This document shows, in pieces, positions 2,543 to 18,628 of a stretch of DNA of 64,000 nucleotides. The notes beneath the pieces were generated by a model. That model was given only the letters and a program-made list of their open reading frames with translations. It did not search any database and was not told where the DNA came from. How positions within the stretch are numbered: position 1 is the stretch's first letter; every line of letters starts with the position of its first letter. The stretch comes from Rhodoferax sp. U2-2l (GTDB lineage Bacteria; Pseudomonadota; Gammaproteobacteria; Burkholderiales; Burkholderiaceae_C): contig NZ_JAJCTH010000010.1 of assembly GCF_020594515.1 (NCBI RefSeq), positions 96,701 through 160,700 of the forward strand. Reading direction: 5' to 3'. A program made the position numbers and the translations under genes.

Positions 2543-3523
2543 ATGGATCGAACCGAACGGTTCTACAAAATCAGCGAATTGCTGCGCGCCAACAAGGTCA
2601 TCAGCTTTGCCACGTTGTTGGCCACGCTGGAGACCTCCCGCTCCACCCTCAAACGTGATCTGAAGTACCTGTGCGACCGCCTGCACAACCCCATCGTCTA
2701 CAACCGCCAACGCGGCGGCTACCAGCTAGCGGCCCCTGACCCAGCCGACAAACACGCGCACGAGTTGCCCGGGCTGTGGTTCTCTCCCACCGAAATCCAC
2801 GCCCTGCTGACCATGCAGCAACTGCTGGCCGGGCTGGACCCGGGTGGGCTCCTGACCAGCCACATCGCCCCGCTGATGGCGCGTCTGAACGCCCTGCTGG
2901 GGCCAGAAGGCAATGCCGAGGCTACCGAGCTGCGCCAGCGTGTGCGCATCATCCGCCTGGCGCAACGCGGCGTGCGCCCGCGCCACTTTGAGCAAGTCGC
3001 CACCGCCCTGGCCCAGCGCAAGCGCCTGCACATGGCCTACACCGCACGCGGCAACGGCCACACCACCGAGCGCGACATCTCGCCCCAGCGCCTGGTGCAC
3101 TACCGCGACAACTGGTACCTGGATGCCTGGTGCCATTACCGCCAGCAATTGCGCAACTTTGCGCTGGACGCCATCACCCGGCTGGAGCCGCTCAACGAGC
3201 CTGCGCGTGAAGTCAGCCCCGCGCAACTCAGCGCCACCTTCGGCCCCGGCTACGGCATTTTTTCAGGCGGCAAGCTGCGCTGGGCCCGCCTGCGCTTTAG
3301 CCCCGAGCGCGCCCGCTGGGTGGCGCAAGAGCAGTGGCACACCGAGCAAAGCGGCAAGTTCGAGAGCGACGGCAGCTACCTGCTGCGCCTGCCCTACACC
3401 GACCACCGCGAGCTGATCATGGACATCCTCAAACACGGCACCCACTGCGAAGTGCTGGGGCCGCCCTCGCTGCGCAAAGTCGTCGCGGAGGAGGTGAAAA
3501 AGCTGGGTGAAAAATATTTCTGA
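2543..3523 (+). CDS. WYL-domain transcriptional regulator next to cas operon
   Basis: This 326-aa protein has an N-terminal helix-turn-helix of the HTH_11/DeoR-like type (about residues 5-60, ISELLRANKVISFATLL then TSRSTLKRDLKYL), a linker, and a WYL domain (about 150-240, containing RLVHYRDNWYLDAWC) followed by a C-terminal WCX-like extension. WYL domains are Sm-like folds thought to sense nucleic-acid or nucleotide ligands, and they are recurrent neighbours of CRISPR-Cas and other defence loci. The gene lies 82 bp upstream of cas3 on the same strand, so it is a candidate local regulator of the cas operon. It could equally regulate the CoA-transferase gene, which ends 33 bp upstream. Confidence 0.88.
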   Translation: MDRTERFYKISELLRANKVISFATLLATLETSRSTLKRDLKYLCDRLHNPIVYNRQRGGYQLAAPDPADKHAHELPGLWFSPTEIHALLTMQQLLAGLDPGGLLTSHIAPLMARLNALLGPEGNAEATELRQRVRIIRLAQRGVRPRHFEQVATALAQRKRLHMAYTARGNGHTTERDISPQRLVHYRDNWYLDAWCHYRQQLRNFALDAITRLEPLNEPAREVSPAQLSATFGPGYGIFSGGKLRWARLRFSPERARWVAQEQWHTEQSGKFESDGSYLLRLPYTDHRELIMDILKHGTHCEVLGPPSLRKVVAEEVKKLGEKYF

Positions 3524-3605: not shown

Positions 3606-5867
3606 GTGTCAGACGCATTGGCTCATTCGGGTGGGCACTTGTTGGCCATGCATTTGGAAAAGGTTGCTGAATTGGCGGCCGAGTTTTCCAAGGCATTTGA
3701 TGCTGCCGAACCCGCATTACGCTGGGCTTATCTGGCGGGCTTGTGGCATGACCTTGGCAAATACCGCCCTGGTTTTCAGCGCTATGTTCGGCTGGCAGAT
3801 AACCCGGATGCGCACATCGAAGGCAAAGTAGGTGGGCGCGAGAAGACCCATTCAGCTGCTGGCGCACTGTGGGCCATGCAGCAATTGCCCAAACCCTACG
3901 GCAACGTCCTTGCCTACCTGATTGCGGGTCATCATGCGGGGTTGGACAACTGGGATGGAGAGGGTGGTGGGCTCGCGTGGCGTTTGCAAGGTGAAGATGC
4001 ACAAGCCGAGTTAAGTACGGCTCTAAAAGCTACCCCACCCGCCAGCATTTTGAGTGCTGGTACCTTCATTCCTGACTTGCGTTACTTACCCGGTGGCGCA
4101 GCAGGCTTTGCCTTGTGGATGCGCATGCTGTTCTCATGTCTGGTCGATGCTGACTTTCTGGACACCGAAGCGCACTTTGATGCTGGCAAACCCGCCCGCC
4201 GCGAAGGCTTTCCCACGCTTGCACAAATGCGCTTGGTCTTTGATGCCCACATGGCCGCGTTGCCGGTGGTAGACACCCCCGTCAACACTTTGCGCGCCAA
4301 CATCCTGCGCCAGTGCCGTGCCAAGGCGGCACTGCCAGCGGGTTTCTTCTCGCTTACCGTGCCAACGGGCGGTGGCAAGACGCTTTCCAGTCTGGCGTTT
4401 GCGTTGGAGCACGCCCAAGCCCATGACAAGCGCCGCATCATTTACGCCATTCCCTACACCAGCATCATTGAGCAGACGGCAGATGTATTTCGCAACGTGT
4501 TCAAAGCACTGGGCGACGAGGTGTTGATTGAGCACCATAGCCAGGCCGATGCCGCAGAGAAGGACGAAACCATGCGCAGCCGCCTGGCCTGCGAGAACTG
4601 GGACGCACCGCTGGTGGTCACCACCAATGTGCAGTTGTTCGAGTCTCTGTTCGCCGCCAAGACCTCGCGCTGCCGCAAGCTGCACAACCTGGTGGGCAGC
4701 GTCATCGTGCTGGACGAAGCGCAGCAACTGCCCCCCGAGTTCTTGCAGCCGATCCTGGACGTGCTTAATCTGCTGGTGGCGCATTACGGCGTGACCGTGG
4801 TGCTGTGCACCGCCACCCAGCCCGCGCTGAGCAGCACCACCTATTTCGATGCCAGCAAGAACTTGCGTGGCTTGGAAAACGTGCGCGAGATCATCGACGA
4901 CCCCGACGCCTTGTTTGATGCGCTCAAGCGCGTCCATGTGGTGCTGCCACCTGACTGGACCACCCGCACCGCCTGGGCCGACATTGCCACACAGCTCAGT
5001 GCCGAAGACTGCGTGCTGGCCATCGTCAACACTCGCAAGGCCGCTCGCGAATTGCAGCGACTGATGCCTGTTGACACCTTGCATTTGTCCGCCTTGATGT
5101 GTGGCGCACACCGCAAAGACGTCATCACCCAGATCAAAGAACGCCTGAAGGCCAAGCGTGAGGGGCGCGACCAGCGGCCTCTGCGCGTCGTCTCGACCCA
5201 GTTGGTGGAAGCCGGTGTGGACATTGACTTCCCGGTGGTCTACCGCGCCTTGGCCGGGCTCGACTCCATCGCCCAGGCGGCTGGCCGCTGCAACCGCGAA
5301 GGGCGCATGAACGGCAAGGGCCGCGTGGTGGTGTTTGTGCCACCAGAGCGGCCGCCCCTGGGTCATCTGCGCAAGGGTGCCGATGCCTGCATCTCCATTC
5401 TGAACGGTCAGGCGCACGACCCGCTGGCTCGCACCTTGTTTGATCGCTATTTCAAAGAGTTTTACAACTCGGTGGATTTGGATGCCAAGGGAGTAGTCAG
5501 ACTACTCACGATCAACGACCGCAAAACCCTGAGTGTCCAGTTCCGCACTGCAGCTGAAGCGTTTCGCCTGATTGACGACCAAGACAACGCCACGGTGGTC
5601 GTTCGCTACGCAGAGCACGGTGACGAGATTGAAAAGCTACTTCTGAAATTGGCGGCTGAAGGCCCGCAGCGCTGGCTGATGCGCAAGCTACAGCGTTACA
5701 CCGTCAGCATCCACAAACGGGTGGCAGACAAGATGCTGGTGCAAGGTAGTTTGACCTTGCCCATGCCTGGGCTCTATGTGCAAGTGAACGCTGAGAATCT
5801 TTATGACCCCATGCTCGGTTTGAATCCGATTGACGCTGTTTTCAACCCCGGTGGCTTTGCTATTTGA
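3606..5867 (+). CDS. cas3: CRISPR-associated nuclease/helicase Cas3, type I-C
   Basis: This 753-aa HD nuclease fused to a superfamily 2 helicase is the effector that degrades target DNA after Cascade binding. The HD domain (about 1-220) shows H48-D49 in WHDLGK, H82 in THSAAG and HH109-110 in AGHHAGL. The helicase shows Walker A VPTGGGKT (about 251), a DEAQ box in VLDEAQQLPPEF (about 369), ATQPAL, and motif VI QAAGRCNREG (about 556). The start is GTG at 3606, preceded by a purine-rich GGGGGAAG at about 3591. No frameshift is seen. It is the first gene of the cas operon, with cas5 9 bp downstream. Confidence 0.97.
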   Translation: MSDALAHSGGHLLAMHLEKVAELAAEFSKAFDAAEPALRWAYLAGLWHDLGKYRPGFQRYVRLADNPDAHIEGKVGGREKTHSAAGALWAMQQLPKPYGNVLAYLIAGHHAGLDNWDGEGGGLAWRLQGEDAQAELSTALKATPPASILSAGTFIPDLRYLPGGAAGFALWMRMLFSCLVDADFLDTEAHFDAGKPARREGFPTLAQMRLVFDAHMAALPVVDTPVNTLRANILRQCRAKAALPAGFFSLTVPTGGGKTLSSLAFALEHAQAHDKRRIIYAIPYTSIIEQTADVFRNVFKALGDEVLIEHHSQADAAEKDETMRSRLACENWDAPLVVTTNVQLFESLFAAKTSRCRKLHNLVGSVIVLDEAQQLPPEFLQPILDVLNLLVAHYGVTVVLCTATQPALSSTTYFDASKNLRGLENVREIIDDPDALFDALKRVHVVLPPDWTTRTAWADIATQLSAEDCVLAIVNTRKAARELQRLMPVDTLHLSALMCGAHRKDVITQIKERLKAKREGRDQRPLRVVSTQLVEAGVDIDFPVVYRALAGLDSIAQAAGRCNREGRMNGKGRVVVFVPPERPPLGHLRKGADACISILNGQAHDPLARTLFDRYFKEFYNSVDLDAKGVVRLLTINDRKTLSVQFRTAAEAFRLIDDQDNATVVVRYAEHGDEIEKLLLKLAAEGPQRWLMRKLQRYTVSIHKRVADKMLVQGSLTLPMPGLYVQVNAENLYDPMLGLNPIDAVFNPGGFAI

Positions 5868-5876
5868 AGGAAAACC

Positions 5877-6530
5877 ATGCCCAGTTTTTGCCTCGAAGTC
5901 TCAGGCCCTTTTGCCTGTTTTACCCGCCCGGAGATGAAGGTGGAGCGCGTCTCTTATGACGTGATGACCCCGTCTGCCGCCCGCGCCGTGTTTGAGTCCG
6001 TGTTGTGGAAGCCAGCCATCCGATGGCGGGTGCATCGCATTGAGGTGCTCAAACCCATCCGCTGGATCAACTTGCGGCGCAATGAAGTCAGCGCCGTGGT
6101 GTCCATCCGCAATGTGCAGCATGCCATGACGGCAGGCAGCGGCACGCTGGGGCTGTACATCGAAGACGAACGCCAGCAACGTGCAGGCTACTTTCTGCGC
6201 GACGTGGTCTACCGCATCCATGCCAATTTGTCGCTGGCCCCGGGCTGCACCGAGCCTTTAATGAAATACACCGAGATGTTCACCCGCCGGGCCAGCAAAG
6301 GCCAGTGTGTGAACCAGCCGTATCTGGGCTGCCGTGAGTTTGCTGCGGACTTCCGTTTGGTCACCGCTGATACGCCCCCCGCTACGCCGATTGGAGACAC
6401 CCGCGAGCTAGGCTGGATGCTGCATGACCTGGACTTCGCTCACCCCTCTGACCCGCAGCCCCGCTTTTTCAATGCCAAGCTGGACAAAGGTGTGGTGCAG
6501 GTTCCCCCATTTGAGGAGTCACGCGGATGA
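5877..6530 (+). CDS. cas5: Cas5, type I-C (crRNA-processing subunit)
   Basis: This 217-aa protein is a Cas5d/Cas5c of normal length. In type I-C, which lacks Cas6, Cas5 cuts the pre-crRNA and stays on the 5' handle in Cascade. The RAMP-like start SFCLEVSGPFACFTRPEMKVERVSYDV and the segment YRIHANLSLAP match the family. A GAAGGA ribosome-binding sequence lies just before the ATG. The stop overlaps the start of cas8c in an ATGA arrangement (6527-6530), showing translational coupling. Absence of a cas6 gene in the operon agrees with this processing role. Confidence 0.95.
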   Translation: MPSFCLEVSGPFACFTRPEMKVERVSYDVMTPSAARAVFESVLWKPAIRWRVHRIEVLKPIRWINLRRNEVSAVVSIRNVQHAMTAGSGTLGLYIEDERQQRAGYFLRDVVYRIHANLSLAPGCTEPLMKYTEMFTRRASKGQCVNQPYLGCREFAADFRLVTADTPPATPIGDTRELGWMLHDLDFAHPSDPQPRFFNAKLDKGVVQVPPFEESRG

Positions 6531-8398
6531 TTTTGCAAGCCTTGACCGACTACTACCGCCGTGCGGAACTTTCACCACCTGGATGGGAATTAAAGGCGAT
6601 ACCGTTCTTTATCGTTCTTGATCTTGATGGTCAAGTGGTTAGCGTGATATCGCGCGCTGATCAAGCCAATCCACGTGGCAGTCAAATTTTGGTTCCTCAG
6701 TCGGAGATTCGATCGGGGAAAAATGCTTGGGCACAGCCCAATCTACTTTGGGATCACTACGGATTTGTTTTGGGTGAGCCCAAGCGAAAACCTAACGGGG
6801 ACATTGACCCAATAGATTCATATGAGAAGGCGGCAAAGCAGCTTGGTGCATTCGTTGCGCGCATTCAATCACTGCTGGTGAGATATCCAGAGTCGAGGGG
6901 GTTGGCCTCGATATCAAAGTTTTATGCGAGTGGTGAATACAAGAAAGTCTTTGCTAGGCCTGATGCTGTCGAAATTGTGAGGATCGCAGGCGCGAACATG
7001 ACGTTTCGGCTGGTGGGTGAAATCGAGCCGATCCTTCATGAAAAATGGGTACGAGACATTGTTTCGACGAGCGCCACTGCAGATGAAGATGCTGAAGATT
7101 TTGTTGTACCAAAGTCAGCCATGTGTCTAGTTACTGGTGATCTCGCAGAAATTGCACGATTGCATCCAAAAATCTACCGAGTCTGTTCAAAACCGACTGC
7201 GCTTGCTGCAGCCAATTCAAAGGAAGCGCAAGCCTATTCTTCATACGGTAAGGATCAAGGTTTCATTTTTCCAGTTGGGAAACCTGCTGTCTTCGCGTAC
7301 ACCACTGCGCTAAACCACCTGCTGCGCAAGGACTCGCCCCAACGCATTCAGGTGGGAGATGCGTCCACGGTGTTTTGGGCTGAGCGTGATTCGGACTTTG
7401 AGACGACCGTCGTTGATATTTTTGGTGACCCACCCAAGGACGACCCAGACCGAAGTACTCGCGCGGTACAGGCCGTGCTGAATGCGGTGCACAGTGGCAA
7501 ATGGGGTTCGTCTGATGAAAACACGCGCTTTTATGTCTTGGGTCTGGCCCCCAACGCGGCGCGCATCAGCATCCGCTTTTATCACTGCGTAACCCTGGGC
7601 GAGCTGGGCCAGCGCATCGCTCAGCACATTAAGGACTTGGAACTGGCGCGAGGGTCGTATGACCCGCAATATCCAAGTTTGAAGCGATTGCTTCAAACGG
7701 TTTGTCTAGCCACCAGCAGTCAACCCTTTGGCGACATTGACCGGCTTCCCCCGAACTTGGGCGGTGCCATTGTGGACGCTATTTTTGAGAGTGAAAACAC
7801 TCCGTATCCGGCGTTGTGGCTTAACGCGGCGGTAGGTCGCTGCCGCGCAGAGCAAGCGAAGAAAACGCAGCAGGGAACGCAAGCTCAAAACGTCCCATAC
7901 GCCCGGGCCGCGGTGATTAAAGCTTGTCTCAATCGACAAATACGCAGAACAAATCTTTCAGCACCCGACCACTTACATGAAAAGGAGTTCCTACCCATGC
8001 TTGATCTCACAAATACCAATCCGGGATACCTTTTAGGTCGGCTGTTTGCTGTCCTAGAACGATTGCAAGAGACCTCCGCAGGTGGCGGTGGAAAGTTGAA
8101 TTCAACGATTCGAGATAAATACTACGGTGCGATGGCTAGTTCGCCTGGGATAGTTTTTCCAACGCTGGATAACCTCAAAACCTCGCATTTAAAGAAGCTA
8201 CCTTGGGCACAAAAGGAGTGGTTTGACAAGTTGATTGGGGGGATTCTGAGCGAGCTACCCGATATCCCAAGACAGCTACCACTCCCAGACCAGGGCCGCT
8301 TTGCGCTGGGCTACTACCACCAGCGACAAGACTTTTTTACCAAAAAACCTGACGACTCCATCATCACAACTGCCTCCAAGGAAGGAACCCCAGCATGA
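6527..8398 (+). CDS. cas8c: Cas8c (Csd1), large Cascade subunit of type I-C
   Basis: This 623-aa protein is the type I-C large subunit, which recognises the PAM and helps open the target DNA. It overlaps cas5 upstream and cas7 downstream (ATGA at 8395-8398). The C-terminal 133 residues can also be made separately as Cas11 (see the 7997-8398 entry). Base composition is uneven: about 6540-7290 and 7910-8270 are clearly lower in GC and use more A/T-ending codons than 7310-7720 and the flanking cas genes, which suggests a mosaic built by recombination. Motif-level assignment is weak in this fast-evolving family, so the call rests mainly on length, position and overall resemblance. Confidence 0.94.
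   Translation: MILQALTDYYRRAELSPPGWELKAIPFFIVLDLDGQVVSVISRADQANPRGSQILVPQSEIRSGKNAWAQPNLLWDHYGFVLGEPKRKPNGDIDPIDSYEKAAKQLGAFVARIQSLLVRYPESRGLASISKFYASGEYKKVFARPDAVEIVRIAGANMTFRLVGEIEPILHEKWVRDIVSTSATADEDAEDFVVPKSAMCLVTGDLAEIARLHPKIYRVCSKPTALAAANSKEAQAYSSYGKDQGFIFPVGKPAVFAYTTALNHLLRKDSPQRIQVGDASTVFWAERDSDFETTVVDIFGDPPKDDPDRSTRAVQAVLNAVHSGKWGSSDENTRFYVLGLAPNAARISIRFYHCVTLGELGQRIAQHIKDLELARGSYDPQYPSLKRLLQTVCLATSSQPFGDIDRLPPNLGGAIVDAIFESENTPYPALWLNAAVGRCRAEQAKKTQQGTQAQNVPYARAAVIKACLNRQIRRTNLSAPDHLHEKEFLPMLDLTNTNPGYLLGRLFAVLERLQETSAGGGGKLNSTIRDKYYGAMASSPGIVFPTLDNLKTSHLKKLPWAQKEWFDKLIGGILSELPDIPRQLPLPDQGRFALGYYHQRQDFFTKKPDDSIITTASKEGTPA
7997..8398 (+). CDS. cas11: Cas11c small subunit from an internal start inside cas8c
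   Basis: Type I-C systems are known to translate a small subunit from within cas8c. Here an in-frame ATG at codon 491 of cas8c follows a strong AAAGGAG (7981-7987) with 9 nt spacing, better than most ribosome-binding sites in this operon. The product would be 133 aa, starting MLDLTNTNPGYLLGRLFAVL, mostly helical, and ending at the cas8c stop. In the family, Cas11 lines the belly of Cascade beside the Cas7 backbone. Production is inferred from the start signal and from the family, not observed. Confidence 0.78.
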   Translation: MLDLTNTNPGYLLGRLFAVLERLQETSAGGGGKLNSTIRDKYYGAMASSPGIVFPTLDNLKTSHLKKLPWAQKEWFDKLIGGILSELPDIPRQLPLPDQGRFALGYYHQRQDFFTKKPDDSIITTASKEGTPA

Positions 8399-9354
8399 GC
8401 ACCGATAAAGCACTCGCCAACCGCTACGACTTCGTTCTGATTTTTGATGTGAAGGACGGAAACCCCAATGGTGACCCCGATGCAGGCAACATGCCGCGTC
8501 TGGACGCGGAGTCAGGTCATGGACTGGTGACCGATGTGTCGCTCAAACGCAAGGTGCGTAACTTTATTGGGCTCGTCAAAGGCGAACAGACTGGATTTGA
8601 TATTTTCATTAAAGAGAAGGCGGTATTGAACCAACTTATTGAGCGTGCTTATGAGAAGAGCCCAGAAGTGCAATCTGCAATGGAGGCATGGAAGGCTTGG
8701 CAAAAGGATAAGAAAAAGAATCAAAAACCTCCTAGGCATTACGAAGACATCGCTCGTGATTGGATGTGTCACAACTTTTTCGACGTGCGTACATTCGGTG
8801 CCGTCATGAGTACCGGTGATGAGGATGCAGAAAGCAAGTTGAAAAAAACTGCTGGGCAGGTTCGTGGACCGGTTCAATTGACTTTTGCACGATCAGTCGA
8901 GCCGATCGTTGCTCTGGAGCATTCCATTACCAGGATGGCCGTTACTAACGAAAAGGATTTGGAGAAAGAGCGCACCATGGGCCGCAAGCACACCGTGCCC
9001 TACGGCGTGTATGTGGCCCACGGTTTTGTGTCGTCGTTCCTGGCCAAACAGACCGGGTTTGGTGAGGATGACTTGGAACTGGTGTTCCAGGCCCTGGCGC
9101 AAATGTTCGAGCATGACCGTTCTGCCGCTCGCGGCGAAATGTCCACCCGTGGGCTTTACGTGTTCAAGCATGACAGCGAGCTGGGCAACGCCCCGGCCCA
9201 CGCTTTGTTTGACCGCCTCAAGGTAGAACCCAAGTCCGAGGGCGAAGTGGCCCGTAGCTTTGACGCATACGCCGTGGCGTTTGATGGTCAGAGTCTGGCG
9301 GTTGGGCAATCCGTTCAACCTGCGCCTGGCGTGACTTTGACTCGGCGCTGCTGA
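8395..9354 (+). CDS. cas7: Cas7 (Csd2), Cascade backbone subunit of type I-C
   Basis: This 319-aa RAMP protein forms the crRNA-binding filament of Cascade. The N-terminal RYDFVLIFDVKDGNPNGDPD is the Csd2 signature, and TDVSLKRKVRNFIG and GPVQLTFARSVEPI match the fold. The ATG overlaps the cas8c stop by four bases. The segment of about 8560-8950 is lower in GC than the part after 8960, continuing the mosaic pattern seen in cas8c. The gene ends at TGA 9352-9354, 11 bp before the Bro-N/DinD-like gene. Confidence 0.95.
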   Translation: MSTDKALANRYDFVLIFDVKDGNPNGDPDAGNMPRLDAESGHGLVTDVSLKRKVRNFIGLVKGEQTGFDIFIKEKAVLNQLIERAYEKSPEVQSAMEAWKAWQKDKKKNQKPPRHYEDIARDWMCHNFFDVRTFGAVMSTGDEDAESKLKKTAGQVRGPVQLTFARSVEPIVALEHSITRMAVTNEKDLEKERTMGRKHTVPYGVYVAHGFVSSFLAKQTGFGEDDLELVFQALAQMFEHDRSAARGEMSTRGLYVFKHDSELGNAPAHALFDRLKVEPKSEGEVARSFDAYAVAFDGQSLAVGQSVQPAPGVTLTRRC

Positions 9355-9365
9355 TTGGAGCGAGC

Positions 9366-10208
9366 ATGAAAATCCTGCCCACCGACTTCGACGGTCAGTC
9401 CATCCGCCGCGTGTACGACGAAGACACCGAAACCTGGTGGTTTTCGGTGATTGACGTGGTGCAAGTGCTCACGCAGCAAGTGGATGACCTGACCGCCAGA
9501 AAGTATTGGAACCAGCTCAAACGGCGGCTTGCCAATGAGGGGAGTCAACTGGTGACAAGTTGTCACCAGTTGAAAATGCCCGCTGCCGATGGCAAGCAGC
9601 GTCTGACCGACGTAGCCACCGCCGAAACCCTGCTGCGCTTGGTGCAATCTGTCCCCAGCCCCAAAGCCGAGCCCATCAAACTCTGGCTGGCCAAGGTGGG
9701 TTACGAGCGCATGCAAGAGCTGGCCGACCCGGCCTTGTCGCTCGACCGCGCCCGCCAGACCTGGCAGCAGCATGGCCGCAGCGACAAGTGGATTCAGCAG
9801 CGCATGACTGGGCAGGAAACCCGCAACAAGCTCACCGACTACTGGAGCGCGCACGACATCAAAAAGGGCAGCGAATTTGCCATCCTGACCAACATCATTC
9901 ACCAGGAATGGGCGGGCTTGAGCGTGGCCGAGCACAAAGGCATGAAGGGTCTGACCAGCCACAACCTGCGCGACCACATGAGCGAGGCGGAGCTGATCTT
10001 CACCGCGCTGGCCGAACTGTCCACCCGCCAGATCGCGCAGAGTGTGGAAGCCATTGGCATGGCAGAAAACAAGACGGCTGCCAAAGCGGGTGGGCGCATT
10101 GCCCGCCAAGCACGTCACCAGTTGGAGAGCCAAACCGGTAAGTCCGTGGTGTCCGGCGAGAACTTCTTACCAGTTACTGCAAAAAAGATAGTTAAAGGTC
10201 AAGATTAG
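9366..10208 (+). CDS. Bro-N / DinD-like protein inserted in the cas operon
   Basis: This 280-aa protein is not a known Cas component. Residues about 1-105 look like a Bro-N domain (phage antirepressor/BRO DNA-binding fold: TWWFSVIDVVQVLT, then RKYWNQLKRRL and LTDVATAETLLRLVQSVPS). Residues about 110-265 resemble the C-terminal part of DinD, the SOS-induced protein that inhibits RecA in E. coli (LTDYWSAHDIKKGSEFAIL, HKGMKGLTSHNLRDHM, AENKTAAKAGGRIARQAR). It starts 11 bp after cas7 and ends 26 bp before cas4, with high GC like the late cas genes, so it is probably cotranscribed. Such genes are usually phage-borne or solitary. A role in the CRISPR system is inference from position. Confidence 0.85.
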   Translation: MKILPTDFDGQSIRRVYDEDTETWWFSVIDVVQVLTQQVDDLTARKYWNQLKRRLANEGSQLVTSCHQLKMPAADGKQRLTDVATAETLLRLVQSVPSPKAEPIKLWLAKVGYERMQELADPALSLDRARQTWQQHGRSDKWIQQRMTGQETRNKLTDYWSAHDIKKGSEFAILTNIIHQEWAGLSVAEHKGMKGLTSHNLRDHMSEAELIFTALAELSTRQIAQSVEAIGMAENKTAAKAGGRIARQARHQLESQTGKSVVSGENFLPVTAKKIVKGQD

Positions 10209-10234
10209 ACAAGGGCTAGAGGCACAAATCTCTT

Positions 10235-10873
10235 ATGGAAACGGCAGAACCCATTCCCTTGTCCGCCCTGCAGCACTGGCACTACTGCCCGCGCCAGTGC
10301 GGTCTGATCCATCTGGAGCAGGTGTTTGACGACAACGTGCACACCTTGCGTGGTCAGGCGGTGCATGCCAAGGCGGATCAGCCCGGCGTGGAAACCGCCA
10401 AGGGTGTGCGCGTGGAGCGCGCCTTGCCGCTGTGGCATGACGCGCTGGGGCTGATCGGCAAGTCAGACGTGGTGGAGTTTTTGGCCGGTGGTGTGCCCTA
10501 CCCAGTGGAATACAAACACGGCAGCCGCAATAAAGCCGCCGACATTGCCGCGTGTGACGACATCCAACTGGCCGCGCAGGCCCTGTGCCTGGAAGCCATG
10601 ACCGGCAAACCGGTGAACGAAGGTGCGCTGTACTACGCCACCTCTAAGCGCCGCCGGGTGGTGCCGATCACCGTGCAGTTGAAGACTGACGTGGCACAAA
10701 CCGCGCAGGCCATCCGCCAGATGCTGGCCAGCGGCACGCTGCCACCACCCCTGAGCGGTGAGCAAGCCGCCAGACGCTGCAAGGCGTGTTCGCTGCAAGA
10801 GCGTTGCCAGCCGCAAGCCACCCATGCGGGCTTGCTCTCTGCCCGCGCCGCCTTGTTTGACCCTGACGCATAG
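10235..10873 (+). CDS. cas4: Cas4 exonuclease, type I-C adaptation
   Basis: This 212-aa RecB-like nuclease has an Fe-S cluster. In type I-C, Cas4 trims prespacers and selects those next to a PAM, working with Cas1-Cas2. Cluster cysteines are visible at the N-terminus (YCPRQC, residues 18 and 22) and C-terminus (RRCKACSLQERC, about 181-190). Nuclease motifs are GKSDVVEF (Asp) and VEYKHG (Glu and Lys). The ATG at 10235 is 26 bp from the preceding gene and the stop is 22 bp before cas1. Confidence 0.95.
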   Translation: METAEPIPLSALQHWHYCPRQCGLIHLEQVFDDNVHTLRGQAVHAKADQPGVETAKGVRVERALPLWHDALGLIGKSDVVEFLAGGVPYPVEYKHGSRNKAADIAACDDIQLAAQALCLEAMTGKPVNEGALYYATSKRRRVVPITVQLKTDVAQTAQAIRQMLASGTLPPPLSGEQAARRCKACSLQERCQPQATHAGLLSARAALFDPDA

Positions 10874-10895: not shown

Positions 10896-11924
10896 ATGCA
10901 ACTCCTCAACACCCTGTACGTCACCACGCCCGACACCTATCTGCGGCTGGACAACGACACCCTGCGTGTGGAGGTAGACCGCGAAACGCGGCTGCGCGTG
11001 CCGCTGCACCACCTGAGCGCGGTGGTGTGTTTTGGCCACACTGGTTTGTCGGCCCCACTCATGCACCGGTTGGCAGAGAGTGGCGTGGCACTGGTGCTGC
11101 TTGACGACAACGGCCGTTTCAAAGCGCGTCTAGAAGGTGCTGTCAGTGGCAATGTGTTGCTGCGCCAGGCCCAGTTTCAGCGCGTAGCCGACCCTGCCTT
11201 CACGCTCGACATGGCCCGTGCCAGTGTGGCGGGCAAGATCAAAAACACCCGGCAAGTCTTGCAGCGCGGTGCCCGCGAAGCGAAGTCTGAGGATGAGGCC
11301 AAGGTCTTGACACGTTTAGCAGATGATCTGGCCGCCAGCCTGCGCGCCTTGCCCGAGGTCACCAACCTGGACAGCTTGCGTGGCGTCGAAGGTGAAGCCG
11401 CACGCCAATACTTCAGCGGCCTGAACCTGCTGGTGCGCCCTGACCAACGCGCTGCCTTTGCCATGGATGGCCGCAGCCGCCGCCCACCGCGAGATCGCTT
11501 CAATGCCATGCTGTCGTTCATGTACGCCATGTGGATGAACGATTGCCGCAGCGCGCTGGAAGCAGCAGGGTTGGACCCGCAGGTGGGCTTCTTGCACGCT
11601 TTGCGGCCAGGCCGCGCCGCTTTGGCGCTGGACTTGATGGAAGAGTTCCGCCCCTGGGCCGACCGGCTGGCCCTGACCCTCATCAACCGGGGCCAGTTGA
11701 GTGCGGACGATTTTGTGCTGCGCGAAGGCGGTGGCGTGTCGCTGCAGCCCGATGCTCGCAAGGCCGTGGTGGTGGCCTTTCAGGAGCGCAAAAAGGACGA
11801 AATCAACCACCCGCTGCTGGCGCAATCCGTGCCGCTGGGTTTGGTGCCGCTGGTGCAAGCCAGGCTGATGGCTCGCGCCCTGCGTGAAGACGGCGCACCC
11901 TATGTGCCCTTTGTGGCGAAGTAA
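10896..11924 (+). CDS. cas1: Cas1 integrase, type I-C
   Basis: This 342-aa protein is a full-length Cas1, the metal-dependent integrase that inserts new spacers at the leader end together with Cas2. The N-terminal beta domain begins MQLLNTLYVTTPDTYLRL. The C-terminal helical domain carries the conserved LHALRPGR and LALDLMEEFRP segments that supply the active-site His and acidic residues. No disruption is seen. cas2 starts 9 bp downstream. Cas1, Cas2 and Cas4 are all intact, so adaptation is expected to be possible. Confidence 0.96.
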   Translation: MQLLNTLYVTTPDTYLRLDNDTLRVEVDRETRLRVPLHHLSAVVCFGHTGLSAPLMHRLAESGVALVLLDDNGRFKARLEGAVSGNVLLRQAQFQRVADPAFTLDMARASVAGKIKNTRQVLQRGAREAKSEDEAKVLTRLADDLAASLRALPEVTNLDSLRGVEGEAARQYFSGLNLLVRPDQRAAFAMDGRSRRPPRDRFNAMLSFMYAMWMNDCRSALEAAGLDPQVGFLHALRPGRAALALDLMEEFRPWADRLALTLINRGQLSADDFVLREGGGVSLQPDARKAVVVAFQERKKDEINHPLLAQSVPLGLVPLVQARLMARALREDGAPYVPFVAK

Positions 11925-11933
11925 AGGGCCATC

Positions 11934-12224
11934 ATGCTGGTACTGGTTTGTTACGACGTGAGCACCGAAACCAAGGCCGGCCGCCGCCGTTTGCGCCGCG
12001 TGGCGCGGGTGTGTGAGAGCACCGGGCAGCGGGTGCAAAAGTCGGTGTTTGAGTGCCAACTGGACGTGGCCAGGTTTGAAACCCTGGAGCGCGAGCTGCT
12101 GGCCGAAATCGATCCCAGCATGGACTGCCTGCGGCTGTACCGCATTCCCGGCACACGCGGTTTTGAGGTGATCGAACACGGCACCTTCAAGGCCGTGGAT
12201 TTTGACGGGCCGCTGGTGCTTTAA
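11934..12224 (+). CDS. cas2: Cas2, type I-C
   Basis: This 96-aa ferredoxin-fold protein forms the central dimer of the Cas1-Cas2 integrase. The start [12 protein letters not shown] contains the conserved Asp of strand 1, and [11 protein letters not shown] and DCLRLYRI are family-typical. It is the last cas gene. The leader and array follow directly on the same strand. Confidence 0.95.
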
Positions 12225-12449: not shown

Positions 12450-15400
12450 GGTTCGCCCGCCAGCAATGGCGGGCGTGGATTGAAACTCGCTGGTCAGCAC
12501 CCAGTCCCAGACCTTGCGAAGGTTCGCCCGCCAGCAATGGCGGGCGTGGATTGAAACCTCACCCGCCTTGGCCTTGGCTGAGTTGATGGTTGGTTCGCCC
12601 GCCAGCAATGGCGGGCGTGGATTGAAACATCCATGCTGCGCGAGACTTTGGGCACCAACGGAAGGTTCGCCCGCCAGCAATGGCGGGCGTGGATTGAAAC
12701 GATGTCGGCGTCTTGCCGTCGCGGGCTGCGCGTGGGTTCGCCCGCCAGCAATGGCGGGCGTGGATTGAAACCATCTTCACGCCAAAGTCCGCTACGGCAT
12801 AGGCGGGTTCGCCCGCCAGCAATGGCGGGCGTGGATTGAAACAGGTAGCCCATGGCGGCGTTGATCGCAGCGGTTCGCGGTTCGCCCGCCAGCAATGGCG
12901 GGCGTGGATTGAAACTTCTGCGCGCCCGGTCAGGTATTTGCCGATGTCGGTTCGCCCGCCAGCAATGGCGGGCGTGGATTGAAACTACTGGTGGTGATTG
13001 GACTCACGCAAACATCCGGCCGGTTCGCCCGCCAGCAATGGCGGGCGTGGATTGAAACTTGATGATGTGGCGTCTAAAGGTGGTTGGCCGTCGGTTCGCC
13101 CGCCAGCAATGGCGGGCGTGGATTGAAACTATCAATCTGTAACGCACTGGCCGCACTGTTTGCGGTTCGCCCGCCAGCAATGGCGGGCGTGGATTGAAAC
13201 TATTGATCTACCAATGTTGATTGCAAAAGCAAAAGGTTCGCCCGCCAGCAATGGCGGGCGTGGATTGAAACAGTCGTTCGCCATCAAGAGCTATCACGGT
13301 GGTGGGGTTCGCCCGCCAGCAATGGCGGGCGTGGATTGAAACAATCAAGAAACGGCCTGTTCTTGATCGGCTCCTGGGTTCGCCCGCCAGCAATGGCGGG
13401 CGTGGATTGAAACGACCAAAATTCTGGGCGTTAATCCGGGGTGATGTAGGTTCGCCCGCCAGCAATGGCGGGCGTGGATTGAAACAATTCGGATTGTGCG
13501 AGGTCCATGCTACCCGCAGGGTTCGCCCGCCAGCAATGGCGGGCGTGGATTGAAACCGGTCTTTGACCGAAGCCATAGAAACAGAAACCCCGGTTCGCCC
13601 GCCAGCAATGGCGGGCGTGGATTGAAACCTTTGGCGGCTATGGTGTTGCCAATGGAACAGGTAGGTTCGCCCGCCAGCAATGGCGGGCGTGGATTGAAAC
13701 AAGAGCTCACCGATGCCATCGCCAGCAAATCAGGGGTTCGCCCGCCAGCAATGGCGGGCGTGGATTGAAACATCGTCTGGCACATCATCAAGCGTTTTGC
13801 AGCCAAGGTTCGCCCGCCAGCAATGGCGGGCGTGGATTGAAACACACCGTAAGCAACAAAAAGATTACGATCTGGAGGTTCGCCCGCCAGCAATGGCGGG
13901 CGTGGATTGAAACCCTCAAACGTCATCCGCTTTGAGCCCCGCACGCGGGTTCGCCCGCCAGCAATGGCGGGCGTGGATTGAAACTGGCTGACCCATGGAT
14001 TCAACCGTGCGGCACACGGGTTCGCCCGCCAGCAATGGCGGGCGTGGATTGAAACGGCAACTGCTGTCGGTGTTTCGATGGGCTTGGAGGGTTCGCCCGC
14101 CAGCAATGGCGGGCGTGGATTGAAACGCTCGATTATGCAAACTGGTCTAGATCGCTTGCGGGTTCGCCCGCCAGCAATGGCGGGCGTGGATTGAAACCCT
14201 CAAACGTCATCCGCTTTGAGCCCCGCACGCGAGGGTTCGCCCGCCAGCAATGGCGGGCGTGGATTGAAACATACCAGTGGCGCCCGAGCCAACCAGTGTC
14301 ACGGGGTTCGCCCGCCAGCAATGGCGGGCGTGGATTGAAACTGGAGCTCATCGGTAACGCCAAGTTGCCGGGCCGTGGTTCGCCCGCCAGCAATGGCGGG
14401 CGTGGATTGAAACACGCGCCTGGGGTCGTAAATGATCAACCTGTTGAGGTTCGCCCGCCAGCAATGGCGGGCGTGGATTGAAACACCTCAAACAGGGAGA
14501 CGTCCCACGTATCAGGGAGGTTCGCCCGCCAGCAATGGCGGGCGTGGATTGAAACAATGCACCGGCACTACAACGTTGACGTCCTGCTTAGGTTCGCCCG
14601 CCAGCAATGGCGGGCGTGGATTGAAACAGCCTCTCGGTGAATGCTCTGGCCTGTTGCGCTTTGGTTCGCCCGCCAGCAATGGCGGGCGTGGATTGAAACA
14701 GTCACGACCCGGACAGTTACCAGCTGTGCCGGGGTTCGCCCGCCAGCAATGGCGGGCGTGGATTGAAACTGATGGAGTAGCGGCCATGACCGACTACGCT
14801 CTCGGTTCGCCCGCCAGCAATGGCGGGCGTGGATTGAAACTGAGAAAAAGAACTACAGCGGTTGCGATCCAGGCGGTTCGCCCGCCAGCAATGGCGGGCG
14901 TGGATTGAAACACACCAAGCAGAAACGCAAAATCCCCGGCTTGGTGGTTCGCCCGCCAGCAATGGCGGGCGTGGATTGAAACGGGATGTGGGGGGAAGGT
15001 TTGTAAAGGTTCGGGTGGTTCGCCCGCCAGCAATGGCGGGCGTGGATTGAAACATTGCCGGGCCAGTTGCATCAGGAGCAACGCCGAAGGTTCGCCCGCC
15101 AGCAATGGCGGGCGTGGATTGAAACATCGTTTTTGCTGTCATCGCTGGCGTGATGGCCTGGTTCGCCCGCCAGCAATGGCGGGCGTGGATTGAAACTGCC
15201 TAATACTGATCCGCAGCAGTGGCGCACGCCAGGGTTCGCCCGCCAGCAATGGCGGGCGTGGATTGAAACGCCAGTAGAAAGGAAAACCGGAGAAAAGAAC
15301 TGTGGGTTCGCCCGCCAGCAATGGCGGGCGTGGATTGAAACTTCAGTTGGCTCTCCAGCCACTGAATCGCCTGAGGGTTCGCCCGCCAGCAATGGCGGGC

Positions 15401-18400
15401 GTGGATTGAAACTTTTACGATACGTTTATTGATCTTGACGACTGTCGGGGTTCGCCCGCCAGCAATGGCGGGCGTGGATTGAAACTGATGGAGTAACAGC
15501 CTTGACCGACTACGCTCTCGGTTCGCCCGCCAGCAATGGCGGGCGTGGATTGAAACCCCCAGGTAGTAGCAGTGCAGGTCGTGAAGGGCTGGTTCGCCCG
15601 CCAGCAATGGCGGGCGTGGATTGAAACATTGATCTTGACGACTGTCATTTTCAGCCAAAACGGTTCGCCCGCCAGCAATGGCGGGCGTGGATTGAAACAT
15701 CCTGCTTGGTGCGAGAGGGGGCGATTGATGGGGGTTCGCCCGCCAGCAATGGCGGGCGTGGATTGAAACTCCGCCAGCTGGTTGGTCGGGTGGCTCGCAA
15801 GCCGGTTCGCCCGCCAGCAATGGCGGGCGTGGATTGAAACGTCTATTGATGGTCCAACAAAAATCACGGATCATGGTTCGCCCGCCAGCAATGGCGGGCG
15901 TGGATTGAAACGGCCTGGGCTATATCGGGGGGTATCTCCAATGAAGGTTCGCCCGCCAGCAATGGCGGGCGTGGATTGAAACCTCTACGTGTTGTGCCGT
16001 ATGTATAACCTTGGTGGGTTCGCCCGCCAGCAATGGCGGGCGTGGATTGAAACAAATTGGCAGCATGGGTAACAAACCCACAAAACGGGTTCGCCCGCCA
16101 GCAATGGCGGGCGTGGATTGAAACCAGGTAGCTGTCTTGCAGTTCCCATACCTGGGGGGGTTCGCCCGCCAGCAATGGCGGGCGTGGATTGAAACACTGT
16201 GGCCTGCAAAAACGTCATTGAGTGTGGCCGGTTCGCCCGCCAGCAATGGCGGGCGTGGATTGAAACTTTGAAAATCAGGCAACTTAGCCGCGTTTACTTG
16301 GGTTCGCCCGCCAGCAATGGCGGGCGTGGATTGAAACAAGCCCTTTCGAGTGAAACTCGGAAAAAGGGCGCGGGTTCGCCCGCCAGCAATGGCGGGCGTG
16401 GATTGAAACCACAAATCGTACAGGCGAACGGCGTTCCGCTGATGGTTCGCCCGCCAGCAATGGCGGGCGTGGATTGAAACCGTATATTGATGCAGCTTTG
16501 TTGATTAATAAATTCGGTTCGCCCGCCAGCAATGGCGGGCGTGGATTGAAACAGGAGTTTGTCGATTCCGTTGCCGCTAAATCCGGGGTTCGCCCGCCAG
16601 CAATGGCGGGCGTGGATTGAAACCCCTTGAGAGGCAGCAGGCTCAGCCAGGACGCGGGGGTTCGCCCGCCAGCAATGGCGGGCGTGGATTGAAACGATAT
16701 GAAACTGCGTACTTATGGCCTGATGGCCGGGTTCGCCCGCCAGCAATGGCGGGCGTGGATTGAAACCACCCACCAAGCCGGGGCTGTCTCGGTGATCTGG
16801 CGGTTCGCCCGCCAGCAATGGCGGGCGTGGATTGAAACAAAACCGCAGGATTCGCCCGCGTTGTTGTCGGCGGTTCGCCCGCCAGCAATGGCGGGCGTGG
16901 ATTGAAACCAACCATCAGCAGAAGGGTGGTGCAAAGAGCTTGGGTTCGCCCGCCAGCAATGGCGGGCGTGGATTGAAACGGATTTGTGCGGCTGACGGTC
17001 CAAAACTACAGCAGGTTCGCCCGCCAGCAATGGCGGGCGTGGATTGAAACCCCCACCTGAGCGTCGACAAGTTCCTGCGCAAAGGGTTCGCCCGCCAGCA
17101 ATGGCGGGCGTGGATTGAAACCTCTTCGCGCCGCTGGCGGCGCCGGGTGGCGCGGCGGTTCGCCCGCCAGCAATGGCGGGCGTGGATTGAAACAACCGCA
17201 TAGCCCGGGAGCGGCGCCGTGGTGATTGGTTCGCCCGCCAGCAATGGCGGGCGTGGATTGAAACTCTCGGGCCTGTTACGTCAGGGTGCCGGACAAGCCT
17301 GGTTCGCCCGCCAGCAATGGCGGGCGTGGATTGAAACCCGGTCCCCCTGGTTTCCAAGGTCGGCGCAACCAAGGTTCGCCCGCCAGCAATGGCGGGCGTG
17401 GATTGAAACGGCTCAGTCCAATATGTATAACACGGCGCAACGGGGTTCGCCCGCCAGCAATGGCGGGCGTGGATTGAAACTATGCCGTGCTGGCCCGCGC
17501 CATCGCGCCGCGCCGGTTCGCCCGCCAGCAATGGCGGGCGTGGATTGAAACCGTTTTAGTGGTGTTGTTCGTAACGTTTTGCGTGGGTTCGCCCGCCAGC
17601 AATGGCGGGCGTGGATTGAAACCCTTTGACTGGATGGCGCGGCGTGCTGGCACCAAGGTTCGCCCGCCAGCAATGGCGGGCGTGGATTGAAACATTGACG
17701 GGCCAGACGCTGGAGGTGGCACCCCGAAGGTTCGCCCGCCAGCAATGGCGGGCGTGGATTGAAACAACACCGTGGGCGCGATGACGCCCGTGTGGGTGGT
17801 GGTTCGCCCGCCAGCAATGGCGGGCGTGGATTGAAACCAATACAGCGATGCTGAACGGCACCTGCCAATCTGGGTTCGCCCGCCAGCAATGGCGGGCGTG
17901 GATTGAAACCCACCTTCGGGGATCAAAAAGGGGACATTTCGGCTGGTTCGCCCGCCAGCAATGGCGGGCGTGGATTGAAACCCGAGTTGGCGCATAAAGG
18001 TGATCCAGTCCGCATCGGTTCGCCCGCCAGCAATGGCGGGCGTGGATTGAAACCCCAACAGCGCCAACTGTTCCGGGTCGTGACTGAAAGGGTTCGCCCG
18101 CCAGCAATGGCGGGCGTGGATTGAAACGTACAGGTCTTTGATGTACTCGGTCAGCTTCTCGGGTTCGTCCGCCAGCAATGGCGGGCGTGGATTGAAACTT
18201 CAGAACCATGCGCGTGCCCACCGAGCCATCAGTGGTTCGTCCGCCAGCAATGGCGGGCGTGGATTGAAACAATATGCCCGCCAGTGGTGCCGTTGCCATC
18301 GGTGGGTTCGTCCGCCAGCAATGGCGGGCGTGGATTGAAACGCGTCAGCTTCGAGGCCCTACGCACCGGGCAAGGCGGTTCGTCCGCCAGCAATGGCGGG

Positions 18401-18628
18401 CGTGGATTGAAACTGCTGTGGCTCAAGGGAGTGACCTTCCCGCCTCTGGTTCGTCCGCCAGCAATAGCGGGCGTGGATTGAAACATCTGGTACGTCGCCG
18501 CGATGTGTTATTTCGCTGGGGTTCGTCCGCCAGCAATGGCGGGCGTGGATTTAAACGACAAGGACATACTGCTTTTGGACCGGGCGATCAAGTTTCTTTC
18601 GCCAGTAATGGCAGACACCGATTGAAAC
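12450..18628 (+). CRISPR. CRISPR array, type I-C, about 87 repeats
   Basis: The repeat is 37 bp: GGTTCGCCCGCCAGCAATGG followed by CGGGCGTGGATTGAAAC. It has an 8-bp stem CGCCCGCC/GGCGGGCG and the ATTGAAAC end typical of type I-C. It is longer than the usual 32-bp I-C repeat. I counted 87 repeats (86 clear, one degenerate) and 86 spacers of 33-37 bp, mostly 34-35. Transcription is inferred rightwards because the leader and cas2 lie at 12.4 kb and repeat decay is confined to the 18.2-18.6 kb end. Several spacer pairs are duplicates, overlaps or homologues (see findings). Confidence 0.99.
18162..18628 (+). repeat. Decayed distal end of the CRISPR array
   Basis: The last six clear repeats (starting 18162, 18234, 18305, 18377, 18448, 18520) all share GGTTCGTCC in place of GGTTCGCCC. 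The change turns one stem pair into a G-U pair, so the RNA hairpin survives. The repeat at 18448 also has CAATAGCGG, and the one at 18520 ends ATTTAAAC. A final copy at 18592-18628 keeps only part of the repeat (GCCAGTAATGGC...GATTGAAAC). This gradient marks the oldest, leader-distal end. Confidence 0.93.

Follow-up and report, generated by a model that had tools for sequence, protein, structure and literature searches.

A Bro-N gene of the PDC-S13 defense candidate family recurs at the cas7-cas4 junction of type I-C CRISPR operons and may encode a DNA-break-binding helper of immunity

We have found that a gene encoding a Bro-N domain protein, here called BroN, is embedded between cas7 and cas4 of the type I-C CRISPR (clustered regularly interspaced short palindromic repeats) operon of Rhodoferax sp. 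U2-2l, and that homologs recur at the same junction of related operons. The gene lies at positions 9366-10208 of a 64-kb window, the whole stretch of DNA analyzed (64,000 nucleotides of contig NZ_JAJCTH010000010.1), on the plus strand, as do all window features described here. Our favored reading, with a probability of a little over one in three (about 0.36), is that BroN is a DNA-break-binding, RecA-antagonizing helper of DNA-cleaving immunity that possibly aids spacer capture. What was observed or computed in its favor is the position of the gene, its recurrence, its low ratio of nonsynonymous to synonymous substitution rates (dN/dS), the CRISPR-associated clade to which it belongs, the embedding of its family in other immune operons that cleave DNA and a predicted fold resembling that of DdrC. 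The original prediction, made from the letters of the window, had described a Bro-N/DinD-like gene, probably cotranscribed with cas genes, that could link DNA damage to spacer acquisition. It is borne out in part: the gene is conserved in cas operons and the DNA-damage link has been strengthened, but an upstream LexA box did not turn up.

BroN is an open reading frame of 280 amino acids with an ATG start and zero internal stops, on the strand of the cas genes. Family models and the reading frame confirm the intact placement between cas7 and cas4, with an 11-bp gap on the cas7 side (9355-9365), in which a GGAG at 9357-9360 stands 5 nt upstream of the start codon, and a 26-bp gap before cas4 (10209-10234). 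The Bro-N domain (PF02498) covers residues 14-110 (9405-9695) and scores 34.5 bits against a Pfam gathering cut-off of 25.6, which places the protein in the Bro-N family. It is followed by a helical C-terminal domain, seen in the AlphaFold2 model at residues 123-257 (9732-10136). Among the three PADLOC models of the candidate family PDC-S13 (PDLC04918-04920), the protein fits PDLC04920 nearly over its full length (1.3e-120, 400 bits, residues 8-273). An NCBIfam scan returned no family at E <= 0.001, and no nuclease or transferase domain was matched in the Pfam, NCBIfam, PADLOC and phrog scans. The window gene gave the only Bro-N match in its source genome.

Recurrence was assessed in the best 80 of 234 confirmed type I-C loci, ranked by the window Cas7 in one-genome-per-species data (L057-L136). 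A BroN homolog stood at the cas7-cas4 junction in 23 of the 80. The gene is thus not confined to one strain, and a chance insertion, the outcome that the original prediction had set against its own reading, is ruled out. Contig ends truncate two of the 23 copies (L063, L065). Of the other 21, two are broken (L068, L077) and the remaining 19 intact. The upstream gap measures 11-29 bp in 20 of 22 copies (the broken L068 aside), and a scan of 9000-10500 in the window found no promoter-like site, which makes the predicted cotranscription with the cas genes plausible. Wider gaps, with extra DNA, occur in L066 (680 bp) and L074 (274 bp); the former holds a 148-residue open reading frame without a Pfam match (L066:7144-7590) between cas7 and BroN. 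The median dN/dS of BroN is 0.146 over pairs of 19 loci, the broken L077 included, a value near those of cas3 (0.13) and cas8 (0.134) and higher than those of cas4 (0.096) and cas1 (0.061). A Cas1 tree of 72 rows including the window was built by a short search from loci with a stop-free Cas1 match of more than 250 residues, with the Shimodaira-Hasegawa-like approximate likelihood ratio test (SH-aLRT) as its sole support measure. All 21 BroN rows fell inside one 27-row set (SH-aLRT 96) together with 4 loci carrying accessory genes and 2 empty loci, and BroN presence took at least six state changes on the tree vs 18.5 in shuffles, with none of 500 shuffles as low.

BroN is not a core type I-C component, given its presence in 23 of the 80 closest loci and its rarity in broader samples. 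Among 200 genomes of the window's family, 24 had a PDC-S13 match and 24 had Cas8c, with the two adjacent in four of the latter: the window's own genome (G000), G035, G141 and G142, of which the last two are probably the same as L058 and L091. Among 398 genomes of the phylum, PDC-S13 was matched in 22 (E <= 1e-20) and Cas8c in 30; they were adjacent in one of these 30, again the window's own.

A Bro-N tree of 48 rows separated a CRISPR clade of 29 (support 100/100, stem 1.17). Its members are 22 I-C copies (including the window, G035 and the broken L077), two I-F copies and five others, one of which lies by a cas remnant (L164, genome G027) and four of which show no cas neighbor (L159, L160, L165, L175). 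The tree was built without the partial or broken L063, L065, L068, L170, L177, L191, L196, L198, L199 and L200, the distant L190, and L184 and L215. Net charge does not set the clade apart (median isoelectric point 9.35 vs 9.11). Since a copy from a type I-B operon was placed in another supported group, embedding in CRISPR operons probably arose at least twice.

Two comparisons bear on which module the gene follows. Between G035 and the window, BroN is 79%, cas4 76% and cas1 83% identical, vs 33% for cas3, 24% for cas5, 30% for cas7 and no cas8 match at the blastp limit used. Between the two I-F copies, BroN is 92% and cas1 85% identical (312 residues), vs 40% for cas2-3. As judged from sequence identity, BroN and cas1 both remain alike in each comparison, unlike the interference genes. 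Distance matrices of 19 loci point weakly the same way, the two direct comparisons being the stronger evidence: the correlation with BroN was 0.53 for cas1, 0.49 for cas4, 0.33 for cas5, 0.30 for cas2, 0.24 for cas7 (p 0.054), 0.16 for cas3 and -0.25 for cas8. With L077 replaced by L091, the values were 0.53 for cas1, 0.43 for cas4, 0.42 for cas2 and -0.16 for cas8. Breakpoints falling by chance between cas7 and BroN could, through position alone, give both similarity patterns. GC content at third codon positions differs from that of BroN by means of 0.023 for cas1, 0.036 for cas4, 0.041 for cas3, 0.096 for cas7 and 0.098 for cas8; nearness to cas1 and cas4 was set aside as a signal because most loci show low values for cas7 and cas8, which looks gene-specific.

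Members of the family are embedded in several kinds of immune operon (I-C, I-F, I-B and restriction-modification), a breadth absent from the original prediction. The type I-F copies lie between cas1 and cas2-3 in two genomes of another family of the same phylum (G262/L176 and G266/L188); in that family, Cas2-3 exceeded the cut-off in 5 of 74 genomes (11 with any match), and BroN occupied the junction in 2 of the 5. A KilA-N fragment (L188:6748-7053) lies between cas1 and BroN in G266. The I-B copy, a 49% relative, sits between cas4 and cas1b on plasmid pACLO of Arcobacter cloacae, in an operon that also has an AAA_14/DUF4143 ATPase gene inserted between cas3 and cas4 (L180:4218-5477), its second additional gene. 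In G027 an intact copy adjoins a 35-residue cas7 remnant, a gene resembling hicB and an array whose repeats of 28 nt recur with a 60-nt period, which we take to be of I-F type. Restriction operons hold more distant relatives, at 43-49% identity. Three of these separate hsdM from hsdS (L161, L168, L186) and one stands ahead of hsdR (L173); another separates res from mod in a type III system (L174), and a further one follows a type IIG enzyme (L162). The CRISPR and restriction systems that host embedded BroN all cut DNA. Stand-alone relatives, as far as seen, occur on Bacteroidota plasmids and on Chlorohelix plasmids, one of the latter ~3.8 kb from a I-D cas3. The plasmid collection gave 14 records and the phage collection 4, all below 60% identity and one of them the I-B case; six plasmid matches were examined in context. 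Homologs were also found on four faecal phage contigs (38-49% identity) and on one viral contig (63%). The context survey covered loci other than those of G057, G064, G101, G110:C101, G274, G285 and G444, among others. A 1042-residue fusion in G120 (L160) is probably a spurious long frame, as its Bro-N part alone matched Pfam and PADLOC.

The AlphaFold2 model suggests what such a protein could do. Over the two domains together it matched a single solved family, that of Deinococcus DdrC, and so is predicted to share the two-domain fold of DdrC, with a different domain orientation. DdrC alone stood out in the fold search, in which residues 136-260 accounted for most other rows; other folds are possible for single parts of the protein. 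Identity in the structural alignments is 15-18%, and no DdrC chain was found among PDB sequences with the protein or with our family profile A1. DdrC senses and binds DNA breaks, and we know of no link between it and cas genes.

Escherichia coli DinD is a relative of a different kind. The label Bro-N/DinD-like was apt in that the Bro-N domain passes Pfam and both proteins fall in PDC-S13, but DinD itself is remote, with 24% identity over 111 residues at E ~0.05 in blastp. It enters PDC-S13 through another model (PDLC04919, 2.4e-121), and profile A1 gives no match to it; direct orthology is ruled out on these grounds. The two proteins are alike in their Bro-N domain (Pfam 1.5e-7 in DinD), in similar length and in a C-terminal part, residues 122-250 of DinD, that matches PDLC04920 at 2.2e-16, the profile region common to both. 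The PADLOC model PDLC03083, labeled Specificity_I, also matches DinD (3.1e-114), which may mean that DinD-like proteins of restriction operons were used to build it. DinD is said, in a citing passage of PMC4786428, to dismantle RecA filaments, the E. coli protein being the one for which inhibition or dismantling of such filaments is published.

We propose that BroN would bind the DNA ends of cut invader DNA, as its predicted DdrC-like fold suggests, and, by analogy with its distant relative DinD, would oppose RecA there. The cut ends would then be lost to recombinational repair and stay open to destruction; in CRISPR operons, they would also be left for Cas1 and could be captured as new spacers. 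The capture step draws on the similarity patterns shared with cas1 and on published E. coli genetics, which in PMC6212769 indicate that RecA loading inhibits naive spacer acquisition and that RecA removal restores it. That finding, with the DdrC fold match, is what adds weight to the DNA-damage link of the original prediction; the missing CTGT-N8-ACAG LexA box upstream tells against it. The more specific form of the proposal is rather doubtful, namely that a dedicated clade of DdrC/DinD-fold break proteins is a so far unrecognized accessory of CRISPR adaptation, holding cut DNA open, freeing it of RecA and passing it to Cas4-Cas1-Cas2 (I-C, I-B) or Cas1-Cas2-3 (I-F).

Several observations weigh against a break-binding, RecA-opposing helper. 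The DdrC match has a root-mean-square deviation of 13 A over both domains, with 13-17 A in the structural alignments, and the domains hence sit differently. RecA activity may not carry over from DinD, because DinD is distant and missed by profile A1. Control by the SOS response was looked for through CTGT-N8-ACAG, the sole LexA motif tried, with at most one mismatch: no box was found near the window gene, the nearest being at 7287 inside cas8c, and the 64 kb held 7 matches vs 22 expected by chance. E. coli dinD differs in standing alone and in having a LexA box at -61 that is perfect. No such box precedes the copies of the window, of the I-F operons or of the I-B operon, the best site of the I-F and I-B copies having 3 mismatches within 300 bp. 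A LexA-like site with one mismatch does lie ~53 bases before BroN in L160, a stand-alone member of the CRISPR clade. BroN is broken in L068 and L077 beside recovered cas genes that are stop-free, and hence is dispensable. The four clade members that show no cas neighbor count on the same side, with two of them (L159, L175) near contig ends. The asymmetry of the distance matrices is fragile, as the Cas7 correlation rises to r 0.39 (p 0.0024) after the swap of L077 for L091. Arrays beside BroN loci showed no visible extra length, the arrays being cut by locus ends. Because restriction-modification operons acquire no spacers, a role in adaptation is unlikely to be ancestral.

The junction itself invites other explanations. 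It serves as a hotspot of small genes, those of toxin-antitoxin systems included, a general use of the slot that the original prediction did not include. The cas7-cas4 junction was at least 200 bp long in 66 of 78 loci, and the five other junctions were open in 0 to 12.5% (cas3-cas5 9/72, cas5-cas8 0/75, cas8-cas7 1/79, cas4-cas1 3/77, cas1-cas2 1/74). Of the 80 loci, 23 hold BroN, 43 other accessory genes and 12 nothing, with 2 unclear. The 43 comprise HicAB (16), ParE/RelE with antitoxin (10), PIN (5), DUF433/DUF5615 (5), HigBA-like (3), YhcG (2) and four-helix (2) classes, assigned by similarity to representatives in a fixed order, such that a locus with two tenants was counted once; ten representatives were scanned with Pfam, the four-helix class not among them, and one HicB-like representative gave no match. 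Because these tenants are mostly toxin-antitoxin genes, the slot favors a guard role or a tolerant insertion site over the helper proposed here.

The leading rival, a real possibility at odds clearly short of even, is that BroN is a toxin-antitoxin-like guard or back-up effector that is silent as long as the immune complex of its host functions, or that phage triggers independently, like PrrC within a type I restriction operon. Besides the 43 loci, BroN is stacked with HigBA and HicAB in L083 and with HicB in L074, and the cas1-cas2-3 junction of I-F relatives holds toxin-antitoxin genes too (L206, L207: Phd/YefM with ParE in G301 and ParE in G278, the junction being closed in G361), so that such genes use BroN's slots in two CRISPR types. 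The standing of the family as a PADLOC phage-defense candidate also fits a guard, as does the silencing of PrrC by its linked restriction enzyme, reported in PMC2610378. Yet BroN is a single gene with no antitoxin, just 11 bp away from cas7 and 26 bp away from cas4, and not a type II toxin-antitoxin pair. Its loss is tolerated in L068 and L077, and a strict guard is hard to square with intact copies in G120, G130 and G027, which lie outside the 24 Cas8c genomes of the sample, though these genomes may be incomplete and may carry other CRISPR types. An unlikely explanation treats BroN as a tenant, selfish or neutral, that occupies a site where insertions are harmless and travels with cas4-cas1-cas2. 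The openness of this one junction, its many unrelated occupants and the 2 broken copies among 21 agree with it, but the low dN/dS, the persistence within the 27-row Cas1 set and the presence of relatives inside further kinds of immune operon do not. Quite improbable, in our judgment, is a DNA-binding operon regulator captured from a phage antirepressor. The Bro-N domain, marginal hits to phrog families of transcription regulation (E 0.013 and 0.042), the occurrence of Bro-N and KilA-N models from phages in a set of viral fold matches that are themselves weak (TM score ~0.3), the homologs on phage and viral contigs and the KilA-N fragment adjoining BroN in L188 would suit a regulator; against it, BroN lies in mid-operon without a promoter-like site, the best phage family (phrog_15286) is of unknown function, a WYL regulator already precedes cas3 and the solved fold closest to its own belongs to a DNA-damage protein, DdrC. 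The gene also stands inside a complete cas operon, with neither a repressor neighbor nor a prophage around it.

That operon carries all seven cas genes of type I-C, each confirmed by Pfam and NCBIfam models: cas3 (3606-5867), cas5c (5877-6530), cas8c or csd1 (6527-8398), cas7c or csd2 (8395-9354), cas4 (10235-10873), cas1c (10896-11924) and cas2 (11934-12224). A CRISPR array of 86 aligned repeat copies with a ~71-bp period follows at 12450-18600, its ends approximate. The WYL-domain regulator (2543-3523, Pfam) ends 82 bp ahead of cas3 and may control the operon. Compared with L057, cas3, cas5 and cas7 of the window are 89-97% identical, vs 51% for cas8c over the best segment; on this evidence cas8c alone seems to have been swapped out or to change very fast.

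PDC-S13 was already known as a defense candidate derived from embedding; such candidates are described in PMC12988326 as products of a guilt-by-embedding screen, most of them awaiting validation. Within the literature searched, from which bioRxiv and the embedding preprint were outside the scope, we found no description of the CRISPR clade, of the I-C and I-F positions, of the I-B case, of the DdrC fold match or of the cas7-cas4 slot. These, with the recurrence beside cas1 and cas4, are new in that sense. Toxin-antitoxin genes of cas operons (HicAB, ParE/RelE, PIN and others) use the junction of BroN, and CreTA safeguards CRISPR-Cas (PMC10097628); BroN differs from both as a single protein that has no partner, and it is not an RNA toxin. 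PrrC (PMC2610378) and DarTG (PMC12255303), effectors found within type I restriction operons or in linkage with them, are associated with hsd genes as relatives of BroN are, a likeness of position. No sequence link was seen, although none was sought, and BroN matched neither nuclease nor transferase domains.

In CRISPR adaptation, the origin of prespacers and the competition of repair proteins for this DNA are still debated. Given a cas-linked protein that has the predicted DNA-binding fold of a DNA-damage protein and appears to track cas1 in two subtypes, the matter can be tested through a single gene. The slot between cas7 and cas4 further provides a natural series in which some operons carry BroN, others toxin-antitoxin genes and others nothing, for reading new guards and helpers of CRISPR-Cas. 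If the proposed role of BroN in adaptation is true, immune memory would be tied to the handling of DNA breaks.
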